Assembly (NCBI GenBank): GCA_021372515.1
Contig: JAJFUG010000102.1
Location: 1 to 41,545 of the forward strand
DNA: 41,545 nucleotides
Source of the DNA: a bacterium
GTDB lineage: Bacteria; Gemmatimonadota; Glassbacteria; GWA2-58-10
Reading direction: 5' to 3'
Part shown: piece after piece, positions 18,436 through 25,645 of the stretch
Numbering within the stretch: the first letter of the stretch is position 1
Layout of the letters: every line of letters starts with the position of its first letter
Made by a program: the position numbers and the translations under genes
Notes under the pieces: generated by a model
Told to the model about the DNA's origin: nothing
The model's input: only the letters and a program-made list of their open reading frames with translations
Databases searched by the model: none

Positions 18436-19136
18436 CCCAACCTCTGCCTGAGTTCGAGTCCAGTGCGCCGTGAAATCTCCTCCGCGCTGACCGCCCCGGA
18501 GCGAAGCAACTCGAATCCGCCGCTCAGCGGACGGACCAGGCTGGAGGGCAGGCCCGTCCCGGCGCCGCTGCCAGGCGCTCGGCTCTCGATCACCGCCAGC
18601 TCCACCCGCGGTTTCGGAGGCTCATCACCCAGCTCGGCGGGAAGAACCTCGGTCAGAAAGCGGACCGGGTCCTCCGGCACGGGCTGACCGGAGCGGTTAA
18701 GGCTGGTCGAGACCATCGGCAACGCAAGCCGTTCCACCACTTTCGCGGTGAACGGGTGCGGGCTGCGGCGCAGGGCCACAGTCTCGCCCAGCCAGGGGCA
18801 GCGCTCATGGGCCGCTCCAGAGGCATTGAACACCAGGGTCAGGGGCCCGGGCCAGAATGCCTGCATCAGGGCCGCAGCCTCGGGCGAAATCCCCTGCGCC
18901 AGGCGCTCGACCCACCCGGTGTCCGGGACCAGGAACAACATGGCCTTGCCCGGCTCGCGTCCCTTGAGCCGCACGATCCGTTCGTGGGCCGCCCGGCTGT
19001 CCCAACGGCAGCCGAAACCGTGCACGGTCTCGGTCGGATGGACCACCACCGCGCCCTGCTCAAGCTTTTCCGCGGCCAGCGCCACCCACTCCGACGGGAA
19101 CGTATCCCCCTCCAGGAGCAGAAAACGCTCAACCAC
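18432..19136 (-). CDS. tsaC: Threonylcarbamoyl-AMP synthase (Sua5/YrdC/YwlC family)
   Basis: 234 aa. TsaC makes threonylcarbamoyl-AMP from threonine, bicarbonate and ATP for the t6A37 modification of ANN-decoding tRNAs. Family motifs: VVHPTETVHGFGC (about residues 30-42), the RLKGREPGKAMLFLV strand (about 56-70), FWPGPLTLVFNA, ALRRSPHP and STSLNRSGQP (about 143-152). The final SSLVRPLSG strand is in place. There is no C-terminal Sua5 domain, so this is the short bacterial form. The start is GTG 19136, with GGAG seven bases upstream lying inside the end of purE. It overlaps purE by 8 bases and ywlE by 4, forming one tight operon. Confidence 0.92.
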   Translation of the reverse strand: MVERFLLLEGDTFPSEWVALAAEKLEQGAVVVHPTETVHGFGCRWDSRAAHERIVRLKGREPGKAMLFLVPDTGWVERLAQGISPEAAALMQAFWPGPLTLVFNASGAAHERCPWLGETVALRRSPHPFTAKVVERLALPMVSTSLNRSGQPVPEDPVRFLTEVLPAELGDEPPKPRVELAVIESRAPGSGAGTGLPSSLVRPLSGGFELLRSGAVSAEEISRRTGLELRQRLG

Positions 19137-19536
19137 GCGCCAACTCCAGAATTCTCAGCGCCAGGTGCGCGGCGTTCTTCGAGTTGTTGATCCCCACCGT
19201 GGCCACCGGCACCCCCGGAGGCATCTGCGAGATCGAGAGCAGGGCATCCACCCCGGCCAGGGGGCCGGAGGCCAGGGGCACCCCGATCACCGGCAGACGG
19301 GTGAACGAGGCGCAGAAACCCGGCAGGGCCGCGGCCAGGCCGGCCCCGGCGATTATCACCCGGAAGCCCTTTTCCGCCGCGGTCTGCACCAGCTCGCGGG
19401 TGGCATCCGGCGCGCGGTGCGCACTGGAAACGTGGGTCTCCCACTGCACTCCCGCCTCGCTCAACACGGCCTCGGCCTTGGCCATCACCTCGCGGTCCGA
19501 CTCGCTGCCCATCAGGATCAGCACTTTGCCCGGCAT
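19129..19536 (-). CDS. purE: N5-carboxyaminoimidazole ribonucleotide mutase / AIR carboxylase
   Basis: 135 aa. PurE forms CAIR in purine synthesis. Motifs: LMGSESDREVM, the active-site SSAHRAPD, IIAGAGLAAALPG, PVIGVPL and a C-terminal GINNSKNAAHLA helix. The loop that reads AGAGGAAHLPG in E. coli PurE reads AGAGLAAALPG here, replacing the His. The rest follows class I PurE. purK is not adjacent, so whether the enzyme uses N5-CAIR or AIR plus CO2 cannot be decided from this window. The start is ATG 19536 with GGAAAG upstream; the frame is open further upstream but without a ribosome-binding site. Its end overlaps tsaC by 8 bases. Confidence 0.93.
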   Translation of the reverse strand: MPGKVLILMGSESDREVMAKAEAVLSEAGVQWETHVSSAHRAPDATRELVQTAAEKGFRVIIAGAGLAAALPGFCASFTRLPVIGVPLASGPLAGVDALLSISQMPPGVPVATVGINNSKNAAHLALRILELARG

Positions 19537-19614
19537 TGTCTTTCCTTTCAGAGTCACGAACACGTTGAAAATGCGTAATATTGCATTGTCTCTCATTCCG
19601 GCGCGGATGTCAAC

Positions 19615-20547
19615 CTATTCCGGCTTGATCCAGCTCTGCCAGTCGGTGGGGATGCGCCCGGCTCTGCGGTAGCGCAGCATGGAGCGCGAGCAGGGGCACT
19701 CGCGCCTCTCCCCGGACAGGCGCTCGAAGGCCAGCGCGGCGTGGCGCACGATGACCGCAAACCCCGCCACCGCGGAATCGACCTCGCGCCTCAGCTCCGG
19801 CTCCAGCATGCCCTCGAACAGCTCGCCCTCGCGATACGGCAGCTCGCGCACACCCTCGGCCCAGTTGGTCACGTAGCAGACCGGATGGTAGCACAGCTCC
19901 AGCTCGCGGGCCAGGAAACACTCCGGGGCCAGGGTCATCCCCACCAGAGCCCCGCCCAGGCGGGCGATCATCCGCACCTCGGCAGGTGTCTCCAGGCGCG
20001 GGCCCTCGGTGACCGCGTACACCGCGCCCTCATGCACCCGCCGTCCGGTCGCGCGCGCCGCCTCGGCCAGAACGGGCCGCATCCGCGGGCAGAACACCGG
20101 GTTCTGGCGGATAAAACCCAGGCCGGTGCCCTTGAAAAACGTGCTCTCGCGGCCGCGGGTCAGGTCGATCAGGTCATCCGGCAGGACATATTCGCCGGGA
20201 GTGAAACGCGTGTCCACCGCGCCGGGGCCGCTCCAGGCGAATATCCGCGTGGCGCCGATCAGCTTCAGCGCCCAGATATTCGCCCGGTAGTTGACCTCCG
20301 CAGCGGTGACATTGTAGCCCTGGCGCCCGTGACGGGACATGAAAGCGTAGCAGCCAGCGCCACCTTGCGGACGGAGGAAAGAGATATCCGCCGCCGTGCC
20401 GAAGGGGGTCTCCAGACAGAGGTCCGCGCCGGCTGGCACTCCCAGGCCGCTTTGCTCCAGGCCCAGGCTGTAGGCTCCGCTGCCGCCGATCACGGCGAAA
20501 CCGCTGAAATCCGAGGGGACCTGGATGTTTTCGGGAAACCGGCTCAT
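19615..20547 (-). CDS. Purine nucleoside phosphorylase, MTAP/MTIP-like
   Basis: 310 aa member of the PNP/MTA phosphorylase superfamily, cytosolic, cleaving the N-glycosidic bond with phosphate. Visible: GGSGAYSLG (residues 21-29), SRHGRQGYNV phosphate-site region (71-80), VNYRANIWALK (86-95), EGPRLETPAE (181-190), GMTLAPECFLARE (203-215). MTAP carries TDYD near the adenine pocket; here VTNWAEG places Asn228, as in 6-oxopurine enzymes such as S-methyl-5'-thioinosine phosphorylase and PNP. A C-terminal tail of about 35 residues holds a CPC motif (about 275-277) of unknown use. It ends the mqnE-antiporter-mqnC run, 15 bases after mqnC. Possible roles: cleaving futalosine in menaquinone synthesis, recycling 5'-deoxyadenosine, or methionine salvage. 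Confidence 0.88.
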   Translation of the reverse strand: MSRFPENIQVPSDFSGFAVIGGSGAYSLGLEQSGLGVPAGADLCLETPFGTAADISFLRPQGGAGCYAFMSRHGRQGYNVTAAEVNYRANIWALKLIGATRIFAWSGPGAVDTRFTPGEYVLPDDLIDLTRGRESTFFKGTGLGFIRQNPVFCPRMRPVLAEAARATGRRVHEGAVYAVTEGPRLETPAEVRMIARLGGALVGMTLAPECFLARELELCYHPVCYVTNWAEGVRELPYREGELFEGMLEPELRREVDSAVAGFAVIVRHAALAFERLSGERRECPCSRSMLRYRRAGRIPTDWQSWIKPE

Positions 20548-20562
20548 GGGGCTGAAAGCTCC

Positions 20563-21609
20563 TCAGAGGGTACGAATCAGGCTGTAGTCCTGATGGCGCA
20601 GCGCCGGGATAAAACCGGCCCCACGCACCAGAGCGGCGATTGCGGACTCGTCCATGACCTTGAAACTGCACCCTGCGGCGCGCACCACGTTCTCCTCCAT
20701 CATCGTGCTGCCGAAATCGTTGGCCCCGTAATACAGGGCCAATTGCGCCACCTCCGGCCCCTGGGTGACCCAGGAGACCTGCAGGTTGGGCACGTTGTCC
20801 AGCAGGATACGGCTGACGGCCAGTATCCGCAGGTAGAGCGCCGGGCCGCTCTTGGCGATATCCATTGTCGTGTTGCCGGGCTGGAAGCTCCAGGGGATGA
20901 ACGCCGTGAATCCGCCCGTGCGCGCCTGCAGACGCTGAATATGCCGCAGGTGGACCAGGCGGTCGCGGAAAGTCTCCCCCAGGCCGTAGACCATGGTGGC
21001 CGTGGTCCTGAGGCCCATCCTGTGTGCGGCCTCGTGCACCTCGAGCCAGCGCCGCACCCCGATCTTGCGCGGGCTGACCCGCCGCCGCACCCGGCTCGAG
21101 AGCACCTCGGCCCCGCCGCCGGGGATAGAGCCGAGCCCGGAGGCGACCAGGCGCTCCAGGACCGCGGGCAGGGGCAAGCCGCTCTGACCGCAGAGGAAAT
21201 CTATCTCCGGGGCCGAGTAGCCGTGCACGTGGATCGGGTGCTCGCTCCGGATGAAACGCAGCAGGTCCAGGTGCCAGCCGAGGCCCAGAGCCGGGTTCAT
21301 CCCGCCCTGCAGCAGGATCTGCACCGCCCCGGCCGCGCGCGCCTGTTCGATCCGCGCCCCGATCTCAGCGAAACTCAGGACATAGGCCTCCGGGTCCTTA
21401 TCCCGCCGGCAGAAAGCGCAGAACCGGCAGCGGCTGACACAGACATTCGTGTAGTTGATGTTCCGGTCCGAGGTGAAAGTCACCCGGCCCTCCGGGTGCA
21501 GCCGCAGCCGCACCGAGTCGGCCCGCGCGCCCAGCTCGTTGAGCGGCGCGTGCTCGAACTGTTCCGCCACGCGCCAGAGGCTCAGCCTCTCTGCCCGCTC
21601 GCTTTTCAT
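20563..21609 (-). CDS. mqnC: Cyclic dehypoxanthinyl futalosine synthase
   Basis: 348 aa radical SAM enzyme of the futalosine route to menaquinone; it cyclises dehypoxanthinyl futalosine. The iron-sulphur motif C-x3-C-x2-C is Cys57, Cys61, Cys64 (YTNVCVSRCRFCAF). Family-typical segments: LLQGGMNPALGLGWHLDLL, HVHGYSAPEID, LGSIPGGGAEVLSSRVRRRVSP, GGFTAFIPWSFQPGNT and YYGANDFGSTMMEENV. GAGCGGA lies directly before the ATG. It sits downstream of the antiporter on the same strand and 15 bases before the nucleoside phosphorylase. mqnA, mqnB and mqnD are not in the window, so the pathway is split in this genome. Confidence 0.93.
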   Translation of the reverse strand: MKSERAERLSLWRVAEQFEHAPLNELGARADSVRLRLHPEGRVTFTSDRNINYTNVCVSRCRFCAFCRRDKDPEAYVLSFAEIGARIEQARAAGAVQILLQGGMNPALGLGWHLDLLRFIRSEHPIHVHGYSAPEIDFLCGQSGLPLPAVLERLVASGLGSIPGGGAEVLSSRVRRRVSPRKIGVRRWLEVHEAAHRMGLRTTATMVYGLGETFRDRLVHLRHIQRLQARTGGFTAFIPWSFQPGNTTMDIAKSGPALYLRILAVSRILLDNVPNLQVSWVTQGPEVAQLALYYGANDFGSTMMEENVVRAAGCSFKVMDESAIAALVRGAGFIPALRHQDYSLIRTL

Positions 21610-21675
21610 TCCGCTCTATCCCCGGCCCCTTCGCTCCGGCGGCCTGAATACCCAGTCAATGCCGTAAACGACAGA

Positions 21676-21704
21676 AGCCGGTAATCACAGGCGATTGACC
21701 GGCT
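21676..21704 (-). terminator. Possible terminator after the antiporter gene
   Basis: On the minus strand AGCCGGT and ACCGGCT (21698-21704 and 21676-21682) form a 7 bp stem with a 15-base loop, about 70 bases after the antiporter stop. The following sequence (TCTGTCGTTT) is only moderately T-rich, so read-through into mqnC is likely. Confidence 0.35.
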
Positions 21705-21774
21705 CTCTGCCGCGTTCTGCTTTCTCTTATCCAAAGCCGGCCGCGGGCTTACCGCAACCCCGGCTTAAATTCTC

Positions 21775-23301
21775 TTAACCGAAGAACACCACTGTCACCA
21801 GGATGAACAGCGGGACAAGTATCCCGACCGAATAGAGCATGTAGCCGAAGAAACTGGGCATCCGGATACCGCTCTCCTCGGCGATCGACTTGACCATGAA
21901 ATTCGGCGCGTTGCCGATGTAGGTGTTGGCGCCCATGAACACCGAGCCGCAGCTTATCGCCTCGAGGAAAACTGTGTGTGTATTCATCAGGTCGTGTACG
22001 GCGGTGGCCTCGGGGATGCCCGGCAACAACTGGCCCAGGGCGCTGTTGAAGAAGGTCAGGTAAGTCGGGGCGTTGTCCAGGAAACTGGACAGGATGCCGG
22101 AAGCCCAGAAATAGTGCGCGGGCTCGTTGACCGCCTTGATCAGAAATGCCAGCGCCCCGTGCTCGCCGGCGCGCAGGATCGCCAGGGCCGGGATGATGGT
22201 CATGAAAATCCCGGCGAACAGGTAGGCCACTTCCAGGATCGGGGCCCAGGAGAACTCGTTCTCCTTGCGCACGTCCTTGGGCGTGAACACCATCGAAAGA
22301 ACGCCCATGCCCATAATAAGGACATCGCGAAGCAGGTTCTGTCCCTCGACTTCGATCCCGCCGATGTTGATCACACCCAGCTTGAGCATGCCGCTCAGCA
22401 GCACGCTGGCCACGATGCCGCCCAGGAAGATGAAGTTGTACAGGCCGACGATACGGATGGCGCTTTTCTCGCCGGTGGCGGCCTTGGTCACGCCCTTGGT
22501 CTCCCGCCGGTATACGATCGTGTCGATCACGAAGAACAGCGACAGCAGGATCAGCGACAGGAACGACATCATCGGGAGCAGGTGCAGAGTCCAGAAGAAC
22601 GAGACCCCGTGCAGGAACCCGAGGAATAGCGGCGGGTCACCCAGCGGGGTGAGGCTGCCGCCGATGTTGGCCACCAGGAAAATGAAGAAGACGATGATGT
22701 GCACCTTGTTCTGGCGGTTCTTGTTGGAGCGGATCACCGGACGGATCATCAGCATCGAGGCCCCGGTGGTCCCGACCCAGGAGGCCAGCACCGTGCCGAT
22801 CAACAGGAAAATCGTGTTGATCGCCGGTGTGCCCTCCAGCTTGCCGCGCACCAGCAGTCCGCCCGACACGGTGAAAAGGCCCCAGAGCAGTATGATGAAC
22901 GGGATGTAGTCGATCAGGTAGATGTGCAGGATCGAATGCCAGGCCGCGTGGCCGAACACCACCAGGAAAGGCACCGCGAACAGCAGCGCCCAGGCCGCGC
23001 TCACTTTGGGGAAATGATGGTGCCAGAAATGCGGGGCGAACAACGGGAACAGGGCGATGCTCAGCAGAATGCCGGCAAAGGGAATGACACTCCAGAGGGG
23101 CAGTTTCGTGCCCAGGTCCTCACCATGTCCACCCGCGGCCTCTGCCTCGGCCGTGCCGGATTCCACGATGGCCGGCTGTCCCGCATCCTGCTGGGCGAGG
23201 ACGATCTCGGCGCTGCTGGAGGGGCTCCCGGCATAGGTGCGCGAGGTGGTGAAAGCGACAAAGGCAACAAAGAGTGTCAGTACCAGAAAGGATGTTCTCA
23301 T
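21775..23301 (-). CDS. NhaD/CitMHS-type ion antiporter
   Basis: 508 aa polytopic membrane protein of the ion transporter superfamily, usually annotated as sodium:proton antiporter (NhaD/CitMHS_2 type). A signal-like N-terminus (residues 1-24, ending SRTYAG) and a Q/E/A-rich stretch (about 25-65) precede about 11-12 hydrophobic helices. Characteristic segments: GGSLTPLGDPPLFLGFLHG (re-entrant ion-binding loop) and, in the second half, a matching LSSFLDNAPTYLTFFNSALGQ. AGGGAGC lies before the ATG. It is placed between mqnE and mqnC on the same strand, so it is probably co-expressed with menaquinone synthesis. The transported ion is inferred from family only. Confidence 0.85.
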   Translation of the reverse strand: MRTSFLVLTLFVAFVAFTTSRTYAGSPSSSAEIVLAQQDAGQPAIVESGTAEAEAAGGHGEDLGTKLPLWSVIPFAGILLSIALFPLFAPHFWHHHFPKVSAAWALLFAVPFLVVFGHAAWHSILHIYLIDYIPFIILLWGLFTVSGGLLVRGKLEGTPAINTIFLLIGTVLASWVGTTGASMLMIRPVIRSNKNRQNKVHIIVFFIFLVANIGGSLTPLGDPPLFLGFLHGVSFFWTLHLLPMMSFLSLILLSLFFVIDTIVYRRETKGVTKAATGEKSAIRIVGLYNFIFLGGIVASVLLSGMLKLGVINIGGIEVEGQNLLRDVLIMGMGVLSMVFTPKDVRKENEFSWAPILEVAYLFAGIFMTIIPALAILRAGEHGALAFLIKAVNEPAHYFWASGILSSFLDNAPTYLTFFNSALGQLLPGIPEATAVHDLMNTHTVFLEAISCGSVFMGANTYIGNAPNFMVKSIAEESGIRMPSFFGYMLYSVGILVPLFILVTVVFFG

Positions 23302-23363
23302 GTTCGCTCCCTTGGCGGGGGTGGTGATGGAAACCTGAAAACCGGACTGTCTCTGTCGTCAAT

Positions 23364-24476
23364 TTATACCGTTTCAACCGCGTTGTACAGTGTGTCCCTC
23401 TCGAATGGCCGTCGTCCGGCTTCGCGGATTATCCGCACCAGCTCGCGCTCTTTCAGGTGCTGCGGGGTTTCGGCCCCGGCATCGTGGGTGATCCTTTCCT
23501 CGATCACCGTCCCATTGACATCATCCGCCCCGAAAAAGAGCGCCACCTGGGTGAGCGGCAACCCGAGCATGATCCAGAACGCCTTGATATGCCTCACGTT
23601 GTCCAGCAGCAGCCGCGCCACTGCGATAGTGCGCAGGATATCCACCGCGCCGGTCTTCACCAGGTCCGGGTAATCCGTGTTCTGCGGGTGGAACACCAGC
23701 GGAATGAAAGAGTTGAACCCGCCGGTCTCGTCCTGCAGCTCCCGCACGGCCAGCATGTGGTCCACCCGGTCGGCCCGGCTCTCGATGTGTCCGAACAGCA
23801 TGGTCACATTGGTCGGAATACCCAGACCGTGCGCCTGGCGCATCACCTCCAGGTACTGCTCCCCACTGATTTTCTCCGGGCAGATCCGGCTGCGCACCGC
23901 GGGGTTGAATATCTCGCCCCCGCCGCCCGGCAGCGAATCGAGCCCGGCCTTTTTCAGCTCGGCCAGGGTCTCGGCCACGCTCAGCCCGGCCTTGCGGGCC
24001 AGGTGTTCCACTTCCACCGCGGTGAAAGCCTGTAGGCAGACCCCGGGGTATTCCCGCCGCAGGAGCTCCAGCATATGGACATAGTAGCTCAGCGGTGCAT
24101 CCGGGTGGCAGCCGCCCACGATATGGAACTCGCGCACCCGCTCGCTCCAGAGGGCACGGGCCTTTTCCAGCACCTCGTCCGGGTTCAGGAAGAACGCTCC
24201 GGGCGAGTCGGCCCCGGCGCGACGGTAGGCGCAGAACCGGCAGCGGTTGGCACAGATATTCGTATAGTTGATGTGCGCGTTGTTGATGTAGCAGACCCGC
24301 TCGCCGTTGGCCGCCAGGTTGGCCCGGTCGGCCAGAAGACCGAGGCCCGGAATGTCGGGGGTCTCGCACAGAATAAGGGCCTCATTCCGCCCCAGGCGCT
24401 GCCCCAGTTCCAGGCCCCGGCCGATCTCCCGCAGGCGCGGGTCGTTGAGCCGCGACACATCGATCGAAAACCCCAT
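23364..24476 (-). CDS. mqnE: Aminofutalosine synthase
   Basis: 370 aa radical SAM enzyme that joins the adenosyl group of SAM to 3-[(1-carboxyvinyl)oxy]benzoate, giving 6-amino-6-deoxyfutalosine. Cluster cysteines 75, 79 and 82 lie in YTNICANRCRFCAYRR. Other family segments: EFHIVGGCHPDAPLSYYVHML, LQAFTAVEVEHLARKAGLS, DSLPGGGGEIF, GGFNSFIPLVFHPQNT and LFFGADDVNGTVIEE. The start is placed at ATG 24476 rather than the in-frame TTG 24488, which leaves no room for a ribosome-binding site. The gene follows the acyl-CoA dehydrogenase after 8 bases. The GGHP-type motif and lack of the MqnC-specific QGGMNP separate it from its paralogue mqnC. Confidence 0.93.
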   Translation of the reverse strand: MGFSIDVSRLNDPRLREIGRGLELGQRLGRNEALILCETPDIPGLGLLADRANLAANGERVCYINNAHINYTNICANRCRFCAYRRAGADSPGAFFLNPDEVLEKARALWSERVREFHIVGGCHPDAPLSYYVHMLELLRREYPGVCLQAFTAVEVEHLARKAGLSVAETLAELKKAGLDSLPGGGGEIFNPAVRSRICPEKISGEQYLEVMRQAHGLGIPTNVTMLFGHIESRADRVDHMLAVRELQDETGGFNSFIPLVFHPQNTDYPDLVKTGAVDILRTIAVARLLLDNVRHIKAFWIMLGLPLTQVALFFGADDVNGTVIEERITHDAGAETPQHLKERELVRIIREAGRRPFERDTLYNAVETV

Positions 24477-24484
24477 CAAACCGC

Positions 24485-25645
24485 TCAACCTCTCCGGCTG
24501 GCCATCTCACGCACCAGGTTGGACACGATGATCGCACGCTGGATCTGGTTCGTGCCCTCGTAGATCTGCGTGATCTTGGCGTCGCGGAAATATTTTTCCA
24601 CGGGGTAGTCTCTCATGTAGCCGTAGCCGCCCAGCACCTGAATGGCGTCGGTGGCCACCTTCATCGCCACGTCCGAGGGGAATACCTTGGCCATGGCCGA
24701 TTCCATACCGTAGTTCTTCACCCCGCCGTCCACCATGCGCGCCACCTGGTAGACCAGGGCGCGGGAGGCCTCGATCTGGATCGCCATGTCGGCGATCATG
24801 AACGAAACACCCTGGAAATTCATGATCGACTGGCCGAACTGCTCGCGCTTGTAGGCGTAATCGAGCGCGGCATCCATCGCGCCCTGGGCGATACCGAGGG
24901 CCTGGGCGCCGATGCCCGGACGGCTCTTGTCGAACGTGCGCATGGCGATGCCGAAACCCGCGCCCTCGCGGCCGAGCATGTCCTCTTTCTTCACCACGCA
25001 GTCCTCGAAAATCACCTCGTAGGTGGCCGAGGCGCGGATACCGATCTTGTCCTCTTTCTTGCCGAACTTGAGGCCGGGATTGCCCTTGCGCACCACGAAC
25101 GCGCTGATCCCGCGCGCGCCGCGGGTCTTGTCGGTCTTGGCGAACACGGTGTAGGTGTGGGCCTCGCAGCCGTTGGTGATCCACTGCTTGGTGCCGTTGA
25201 GCACGTAGTCATCGCCCACCTTGCGGGCGCTGGTCTGCATGGCGGCCACATCCGAGCCGGCCCCGGCCTCGGTCAGGCAGAAAGCGGCATACTCCTCACC
25301 CGCGGCGATGGTCGGCAGGTATTTCTTCTTCTGCTCCTCGTTGCCGCCGATAATGATCGGGAAACTGCCCAGCGAGCTGGCGGCGTAGGTCACGCCCACG
25401 CCGGCGCAGGCGCGGCTCAGCTCCTCGGTGGCCAGAACCAGCTCCAGCAGGCCGCCGCCGATGCCCTCGTACTCCTCGGGGATGTAGATCGCGGGCAGAC
25501 CGGCCTTGGCAATCTCAGCCATGATCTGGTGCGGGAACTCGCTCTTGTGGTCGAGTTCCTCACGCTGCGGGATGATGTAATTTTCGGCGATGCGTCGCGC
25601 CAGACGCTTGATTTCGAGCTGTTCTTCTGTGAGGAAGTACTCCAT
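24485..25645 (-). CDS. Acyl-CoA dehydrogenase
   Basis: 386 aa FAD-dependent acyl-CoA dehydrogenase of the short-chain/butyryl type. Visible: N-terminal helical domain, AFCLTEAGAGSDVAAMQTSA (middle beta domain, FAD/CoA contacts), KQWITNG, YAYKREQFGQSI, IQVLGGYGYMRDYPVEKYFRDAKI and the catalytic base Glu363 in IYEGTNQIQR. The enzyme oxidises acyl-CoA to 2-enoyl-CoA and passes electrons to ETF. GGAGACC lies in front of the ATG. It follows rnc by 54 bases and precedes mqnE by 8 bases. No ETF, thiolase or hydratase genes are adjacent, so the substrate chain is unknown. Linkage to menaquinone may reflect only operon packing. Confidence 0.93.
   Translation of the reverse strand: MEYFLTEEQLEIKRLARRIAENYIIPQREELDHKSEFPHQIMAEIAKAGLPAIYIPEEYEGIGGGLLELVLATEELSRACAGVGVTYAASSLGSFPIIIGGNEEQKKKYLPTIAAGEEYAAFCLTEAGAGSDVAAMQTSARKVGDDYVLNGTKQWITNGCEAHTYTVFAKTDKTRGARGISAFVVRKGNPGLKFGKKEDKIGIRASATYEVIFEDCVVKKEDMLGREGAGFGIAMRTFDKSRPGIGAQALGIAQGAMDAALDYAYKREQFGQSIMNFQGVSFMIADMAIQIEASRALVYQVARMVDGGVKNYGMESAMAKVFPSDVAMKVATDAIQVLGGYGYMRDYPVEKYFRDAKITQIYEGTNQIQRAIIVSNLVREMASRRG

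Follow-up and report, generated by a model that had tools for sequence, protein, structure and literature searches.

The stretch of DNA analysed here (the window) comprises 41,545 nucleotides, positions 1 to 41,545 of contig 102 (JAJFUG010000102.1, assembly GCA_021372515.1) of a Candidatus Glassbacteria-type genome of 4.87 Mb that is 99.5% complete. It carries two genes of the futalosine route to menaquinone (vitamin K2), which serves a large share of bacteria as respiratory quinone, followed by the gene of a phosphorylase-like protein, named FutP in this work, which we propose as a candidate futalosine phosphorylase. The core of the gene run, in the direction of reading, is as follows.

23364..24488, minus strand: mqnE, aminofutalosine synthase (TIGR03700, 456.7 bits, cut-off 434.55)
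21775..23301, minus strand: CitMHS_2 / NhaD-type transporter gene, between mqnE and mqnC, conserved in the window's family of genomes
20563..21609, minus strand: mqnC, cyclic dehypoxanthinyl futalosine synthase (TIGR03699, 445 bits, cut-off 428.1)
19615..20547, minus strand: futP, encoding the futalosine phosphorylase candidate, a trimeric PNP/MTAP-type PF01048 protein of 310 amino acids

A previous sequence-only reading of this DNA had reported mqnE, mqnC and a phosphorylase gene in one run without mqnB, and had suggested that the phosphorylase fills the futalosine-cleavage step. Both mqn genes scored above the curated equivalog cut-offs, futP was located 15 bp downstream of mqnC on the minus strand, and mqnB was found neither in the window nor in the genome, where the best TIGR03664 score was 29.7 bits against a cut-off of 124.7. 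The three genes do share a run, although the transporter gene at 21775-23301 separates mqnE from mqnC, and the phosphorylase gene does not end it as had been stated, since purE comes 18 bp later. In all five sampled genomes of the window's (Glassbacteria) family futP directly follows mqnC, so the arrangement is not a matter of chance.

FutP matched PF01048 with 107.5 bits (cut-off 25.1). Its best curated model was that of MTAP, TIGR01694, with 190.8 bits under a cut-off of 274.85, and three further members of the family also remained below this value (224.8, 196.8 and 176.5 bits). The MTIP model PRK09136 returned 171.4 bits, under its cut-off of 223, and the protein was not among the TIGR03664 (MqnB) matches. 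The AlphaFold model showed a predicted local distance difference test (pLDDT) value of 88.5 and a predicted template modelling (pTM) score of 0.90, and all 50 PDB matches listed were MTAP or MTIP structures. A maximum-likelihood tree, calculated by a quick search without bootstrap and with the P. aeruginosa MTIP as a long branch, grouped 48 FutP members in one clade with a Shimodaira-Hasegawa-like approximate likelihood ratio test (SH-aLRT) support of 100 and a stem of 1.09, while the MTAP clade was separate (SH-aLRT 99). The MTAPs of many FutP genomes (e.g. G200, G204, G207-G210, G212, G222, G231, G233, G243) fell in the MTAP clade, indicating that both enzymes coexist. The sequence-only reading had left methionine salvage open as an alternative; in the tree the protein belongs to a separate clade and not to the methionine-salvage MTAPs that many of the same genomes carry. 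The possibility that FutP is the genome's plain MTAP was rejected as its main role, given the separate clade and the many relatives that encode both proteins. As judged from these comparisons, FutP is proposed as a new, previously unnamed family distinct from MTAP and PNP. Two archaeal relatives (L209 and L210, 34-37% identity, TNYAAG motifs) were located outside the clade, near the MTAP/MTIP split, and are possible S-methyl-5'-thioinosine (MTI) phosphorylases.

The distribution of the family was first considered within the window's phylum, of which 200 genomes were sampled. Relatives with at least 48% identity occurred only in the window's family (five genomes, the other four at 60-65%) and in one more family (two genomes, 48%). 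Of the weaker matches examined in the same phylum (33-39% identity), most proved to be canonical MTAPs bearing a TDYD-type motif, and several of these lie in mtnP-apt-mtnA-aldolase operons. A scan of the contigs of 84,980 species with a six-sequence alignment found 80 loci, for the most part at 44-65% identity, distributed over Nitrospinota, metagenome-assembled genomes (MAGs) labelled Nitrospirota, Armatimonadota, Planctomycetota, Brocadiaceae, Aquificota (Thermovibrio), Spirochaetota, Acidobacteriota, Sumerlaeota, Gemmatimonadota and others. The upstream neighbour was mqnC in Glassbacteria and at L137, L175, L177, L191, L205, L207 and L208, and futP lay directly 3' of mqnC also in Armatimonadota, Planctomycetota, Acidobacteriota, Gemmatimonadota and one MAG labelled Bacillota; the L177 operon reads ubiX-ubiA-mqnE-mqnA-mqnC-futP. 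Elsewhere, for example at L146, L182, L185, L186, L188, L190 and L196, a hydrolase gene of the aminofutalosine-deaminase family was found downstream of futP. The model PRK08418 was the best or second-best one for the futP-adjacent hydrolases scanned, with scores under its cut-off, so that their exact substrate is presumptive. Gene families that recur in several phyla in the neighbourhood of futP or mqnA were mostly futP, mqnA, mqnC/E, the deaminase, ubiA, ubiX and ubiD, the remaining ones being housekeeping or fatty-acid genes and antisense readings. The co-occurrence envisaged by the sequence-only reading was observed, the family recurring across phyla beside mqnC or an aminofutalosine-deaminase-family gene and, in the genomes examined, without an MqnB-type protein. 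At two of these loci, in Planctomycetota/Brocadiaceae, futP lies between a HAD-family phosphatase-like gene immediately upstream (L185:98-844 and L190:1654-2409) and the deaminase-family gene; the product of the HAD-family gene could act on the 1-phosphate that FutP would form.

Residue conservation was then counted over 84 FutP members. Four positions of the protein are encoded in the window by the following codons.

19990..19992, minus strand: Glu186, aligned with the base-binding Glu of PNP/MTIP; 84/84 members, Ser in most MTAPs
19864..19866, minus strand: Asn228 of VTNWAEG, 6-oxopurine-type base pocket; Asn in 76/84 members
20107..20109, minus strand: Arg147, two residues after the 5'-pocket His of MTAP; 82/84 members, absent from MTAP/PNP
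20479..20481, minus strand: Ser23, phosphate loop; aligns with Ser12 of S. mansoni MTAP and Thr18 of human MTAP

In an alignment including 3ozb, Glu186 and Asn228 agreed with MTIP and PNP-type enzymes and not with MTAP. FutP presents the MTIP-type pocket, with Glu in GPRLET and Asn in N.A.G, and the Asp pair that binds adenine in MTAP (TDYD) is replaced by Asn228/Ala230. The segment VTNWAEG is present exactly as the sequence-only reading had given it, and its Asn is indeed typical of 6-oxopurine enzymes but not invariant; the fully conserved residue is Glu186, which that reading did not mention. The phosphate residues Arg72, His73, Ser106, Thr205 and Ser23 are kept in most members, and the family-specific positions are Trp105, Pro108, Arg147, Arg184, Leu206, Tyr225, Ala230, Glu231, Arg292 and Tyr293. 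As Arg147 aligns two residues from the 5'-pocket His of MTAP, it may hold the benzoate carboxylate of futalosine; in the S. mansoni MTAP, H131 is contributed to the 5' pocket by the adjacent subunit (PMC5147791). FutP would serve as a specific marker of the proposed pathway branch, as Glu186, Arg147, Trp105 and the NYAEG motif, found family-wide, distinguish it from MTAP. A planctomycete homologue (L206) shows degenerate motifs (WSETRA, YVASYVENG) in a genome with MqnD-like genes, and is possibly decaying or repurposed.

The base pocket also bears on whether FutP might act directly on aminofutalosine, whose base is 6-amino, without prior deamination and in the manner of the Helicobacter MTAN. 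The MTAP ancestry of the family would suit such an activity, as would the replacement of Asn228 by Ala or Ser in several members and the fact that a deaminase is not demonstrated in the window's own genome, where none was searched for. We consider this very improbable, because Glu186 is invariant, the pocket resembles that of MTIP/PNP rather than that of MTAP, and a deaminase-family gene is the direct neighbour of futP in several lineages.

The nucleosidases that could cleave futalosine in place of FutP were examined by listing the PF01048 proteins of 46 FutP genomes, most of which were classified with models built in this analysis. None of the classified proteins was of the MqnB type. The four PF01048 proteins of the window's genome are all accounted for as a PNP, an AMP-nucleosidase-like protein, an HpnG-type nucleosidase and FutP. 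The sequence-only reading had recognised a functional mqnB or an MTAN elsewhere in the genome, combined with inactivity of the enzyme on futalosine, as an objection; no MqnB-type protein emerged in the FutP genomes examined, although the HpnG-type nucleosidase does occur in the window's genome and leaves the objection partly standing for that genome. The objection is closed for FutP genomes without any MqnB/MTAN/HpnG-type protein: G095, G176, G230, G237, G206, G214, G215, G219 and G227 encode only PNP, MTAP or UP types besides FutP, which is therefore the sole cleavage candidate there. The HpnG-type nucleosidase (C27) was also considered as a hidden MqnB and rejected, as it matches HpnG models with far higher scores than MqnB models and is absent from other FutP genomes. 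Its gene (G000 contig 27, L001:1492-2133) adjoins that of a cyclic-nucleotide-binding protein outside any hopanoid cluster, and relatives were detected in other Glassbacteria and in Nitrospinota, some near mtnA.

This inventory is relevant to a salvage or disposal function, in which FutP would clear the 5'-deoxyadenosine made by MqnC (deaminated, as 5'-deoxyinosine) or serve as a salvage MTI phosphorylase, while another nucleosidase, for example of the HpnG type, cleaves futalosine. The closest solved relatives of FutP are indeed MTAP and MTIP, mtnA is present in most FutP genomes, and the window's genome lacks a canonical MTAP and encodes mtnA, a FucA-like aldolase and the HpnG-type nucleosidase; moreover, the M. 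jannaschii MtiP reportedly accepts several hypoxanthine nucleosides (PMC6302742). Against this, many FutP genomes possess a separate canonical MTAP, and a number of them have no MqnB/MTAN/HpnG-type protein and thus no other futalosine cleaver. Disposal of 5'-deoxyadenosine would leave the loss of both MqnB and MqnD unexplained, and the family-specific Arg147, Arg292 and Trp105 would seem unneeded for a 5' group of methyl size. Such a function is accordingly regarded as quite unlikely.

MqnD, which forms 1,4-dihydroxy-6-naphthoate and dihydroxyacetone from cyclic dehypoxanthine futalosine, was found to be absent along with MqnB. The window's genome contains a single PF02621 gene, whose sole solved relatives are of the MqnA type and mostly deposited as chorismate dehydratases; this gene being MqnA, the genome lacks MqnD and does not encode the complete canonical pathway (MqnA-E). 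PF02621 was searched in 53 FutP genomes, eight of which gave no match. A single gene was present in 39 of the 40 genomes with any match and a FutP with Ser or Thr at position 23, the exception being G216 with two matches of MqnA-like score, and MqnA was the best match for nearly all of the roughly 30 genes fetched from these genomes. The four Gemmatimonadetes genomes, which are of the second family type, each carried two PF02621 genes, and planctomycete G241, with a degenerate FutP, carried three. By contrast, two or more genes occurred in 107 of the 120 FutP-less genomes of the window's phylum with a PF02621 match (Fisher p 8e-25 for a single gene in FutP versus FutP-less genomes, uncorrected for relatedness). 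The joint absence suggests that the consequence of FutP extends past the cleavage step. The phosphorolytic replacement of MqnB put forward by the sequence-only reading is supported as a candidate role, but is incomplete, since MqnD is missing too. A shortage of MqnD has been recorded in some lineages, with 9 MqnA, 9 MqnC and 7 MqnD in Aquificae and 24, 25 and 16 in Firmicutes (PMC3914697, Table 1). Several Gemmatimonadota (e.g. G002, G008, G010-G013, G035) have two PF02621 genes, as expected for MqnA and MqnD, and no TIGR03664 match at 1e-5.

The Gemmatimonadetes genomes that keep MqnD differ from the MqnD-less ones in the phosphate loop of FutP. In the Gemmatimonadetes FutPs from MqnD-keeping genomes, position 23 is Gly followed by Lys or Arg, whereas the FutPs from MqnD-less genomes have Ser or Thr. 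The corresponding Ser12 (S. mansoni) or Thr18 (human) of MTAP hydrogen-bonds sulphate, and the S12T mutation raised the Michaelis constant (KM) of the S. mansoni enzyme for phosphate from 66 uM to 10 mM, about 150-fold (PMC5147791). The simplest reading of this contrast is that Ser23 FutP would yield a 1-phosphate barred from MqnD, and Gly23 FutP a free sugar that MqnD can use.

These data have to be weighed against the view that FutP is an effective replacement of MqnB alone, by hydrolysis or by later removal of the phosphate, with an unrelated, non-phosphorylated enzyme performing the MqnD step and the loss of MqnD being coincidental or separate. This view accounts equally well for the order of the genes and for the lack of MqnB, the S. 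mansoni MTAP can hydrolyse adenosine without phosphate (PMC5147791), the Gemmatimonadetes FutPs coexist with MqnD and are the sole cleavage candidates there, and the HAD-family gene precedes futP at the two planctomycete-type loci mentioned above. We nevertheless judge it unlikely, because FutP and a missing MqnD go together in many phyla, the only clade keeping MqnD is the one with the altered phosphate loop, and the other FutPs retain all phosphate residues.

The explanation that we prefer for the whole, with a probability of about 0.58, is that FutP is a futalosine phosphorylase opening a phosphorylated branch that bypasses both MqnB and MqnD. Chorismate would be converted into aminofutalosine by MqnA and MqnE, and aminofutalosine into futalosine by an MqnX-type deaminase. 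FutP would then cleave futalosine with phosphate to hypoxanthine and dehypoxanthine-futalosine 1-phosphate, replacing the hydrolysis by MqnB, and MqnC would cyclise the phosphorylated sugar to a product that retains the 1-phosphate and would thus be unusable by MqnD. After the model of the methylthioribose 'DHAP shunt', an MtnA-like aldose-ketose isomerase would turn the 1-phosphate into a 2-ketose 1-phosphate, and a class II aldolase would release 1,4-dihydroxy-6-naphthoate and dihydroxyacetone phosphate (DHAP) by retro-aldol cleavage. Futalosine is very probably the substrate and its cleavage probably phosphorolysis rather than hydrolysis; a phosphorylated, MqnD-free branch is marginally favoured, and the pairing of MtnA with an aldolase as final enzymes is doubtful. 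A more extended scheme, with a third, phosphorylated futalosine branch in many phyla (Nitrospinota, Armatimonadota, Planctomycetota, Glassbacteria and others), an isomerase and an aldolase releasing DHAP, and a Gemmatimonadetes FutP that reverted to a hydrolase by loss of Ser23 and uses MqnD, is put forward tentatively, at slightly less than even odds.

Several observations count against the phosphorylated branch. Across phyla, neither an isomerase nor an aldolase gene shows linkage to the mqn or futP loci, and in the window's genome the single mtnA and the two class II aldolase-type genes are not close to the mqn genes. MtnA is present in 32 of 39 FutP genomes and missing from seven, two of them with mqn-futP operons (completeness is not known for most); its presence failed as a discriminator of the FutP branch, being equally common in FutP-less relatives. 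Given the lack of linkage and this equal frequency, the isomerase and aldolase steps stand as a proposal only. The MqnC of the FutP branch displays no obvious phosphate-binding signature (3 versus 19 sequences), the MqnCs of MqnD-less and MqnD-bearing genomes differing in a few residues in a comparison with three MqnD-bearing sequences only. The Gemmatimonadetes clade is nested within FutP, beside Glassbacteria, so that the change from Ser23 to Gly is one event and the correlation a single evolutionary occurrence; the degenerate planctomycete FutP of L206 combines Thr23 with MqnD. Furthermore, the PF02621 control was drawn from a single phylum, whereas the FutP genomes come from many phyla and are mostly MAGs, some FutP genomes, including that of the window, also encode an HpnG-type nucleosidase, and the deaminase step has the gap in the window's own genome noted above. 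As single cases, a class II aldolase gene lies about 2.7 kb from mqnA in a Thermovibrio MAG of the Aquificota (L247:1317-1907), and one Nitrospinae MAG (L242) has a DeoC-like gene close to mqnC.

Comparison with known systems helps to define the family. The P. aeruginosa MTIP (3ozb), an enzyme with a salvage/quorum-sensing role and not known to be connected with mqn genes, resembles FutP in fold (template modelling score 0.85 on target length, 32% identity), in the Glu of GPRLET, in the N.A.G base-pocket residues and in the Arg-His pair of the phosphate site, but lies outside the FutP clade on its long branch and lacks Arg147 and Trp105. MTAP/MtnP shares with FutP the family, the fold and the best curated model, TIGR01694, and differs in having the TDYD Asp pair and mostly Ser where FutP has Asn228 and Glu186. 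MqnB (TIGR03664) performs the step proposed for FutP, the removal of hypoxanthine from futalosine; however, it is hydrolytic and belongs to another PF01048 branch, whereas FutP has a phosphate site, and mqnB adjoins mqnD in many Gemmatimonadota, while FutP occurs mostly without MqnD. The MtnP-MtnA-aldolase 'DHAP shunt' for methylthioadenosine and 5'-deoxyadenosine offers the same sequence of phosphorolysis, isomerisation of a sugar 1-phosphate and aldol cleavage to DHAP, but the likeness is one of analogy only, futP being unlinked to mtnA or an aldolase across phyla.

No paper in the literature searched describes a futalosine phosphorylase. A review of methionine salvage mentions that the M. 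jannaschii MtiP would, in principle, be able to act in the futalosine route (PMC6302742). Ravcheev and Thiele (2016) described mqnZ, a member of PF01048 whose gene clusters with mqnC/mqnE/mqnA in Selenomonas, Syntrophomonas and others, all without mqnD, and proposed it as a replacement of MqnD (PMC4746308); by its description, mqnZ is probably an earlier sighting of the FutP phenomenon in other lineages. The finding widens to a new family and, probably, to a variant of the futalosine pathway not described before. If the proposed branch is real, existing annotations overlook the enzyme that cleaves futalosine and leave the pathway looking incomplete in whole lineages, at least one new enzyme for the MqnD step awaits discovery, the 'mqnZ' puzzle of 2016 receives a chemical explanation, and dehypoxanthine-futalosine 1-phosphate is a predicted metabolite that could be sought directly.

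Finally, the run extends beyond the core genes on both sides.

25645-24485, minus strand: acyl-CoA dehydrogenase gene, ahead of mqnE
19129..19596, minus strand: purE, the gene after futP, a conserved neighbour
After purE, minus strand: Sua5-like gene

PurE is outside the proposed pathway, and the CitMHS_2/NhaD-type transporter, for which we know of no connection to quinone synthesis, is probably not part of it either. A long plus-strand frame at 19741-21684, opposite futP and mqnC, resembles an antisense reading of the GC-rich coding strand.

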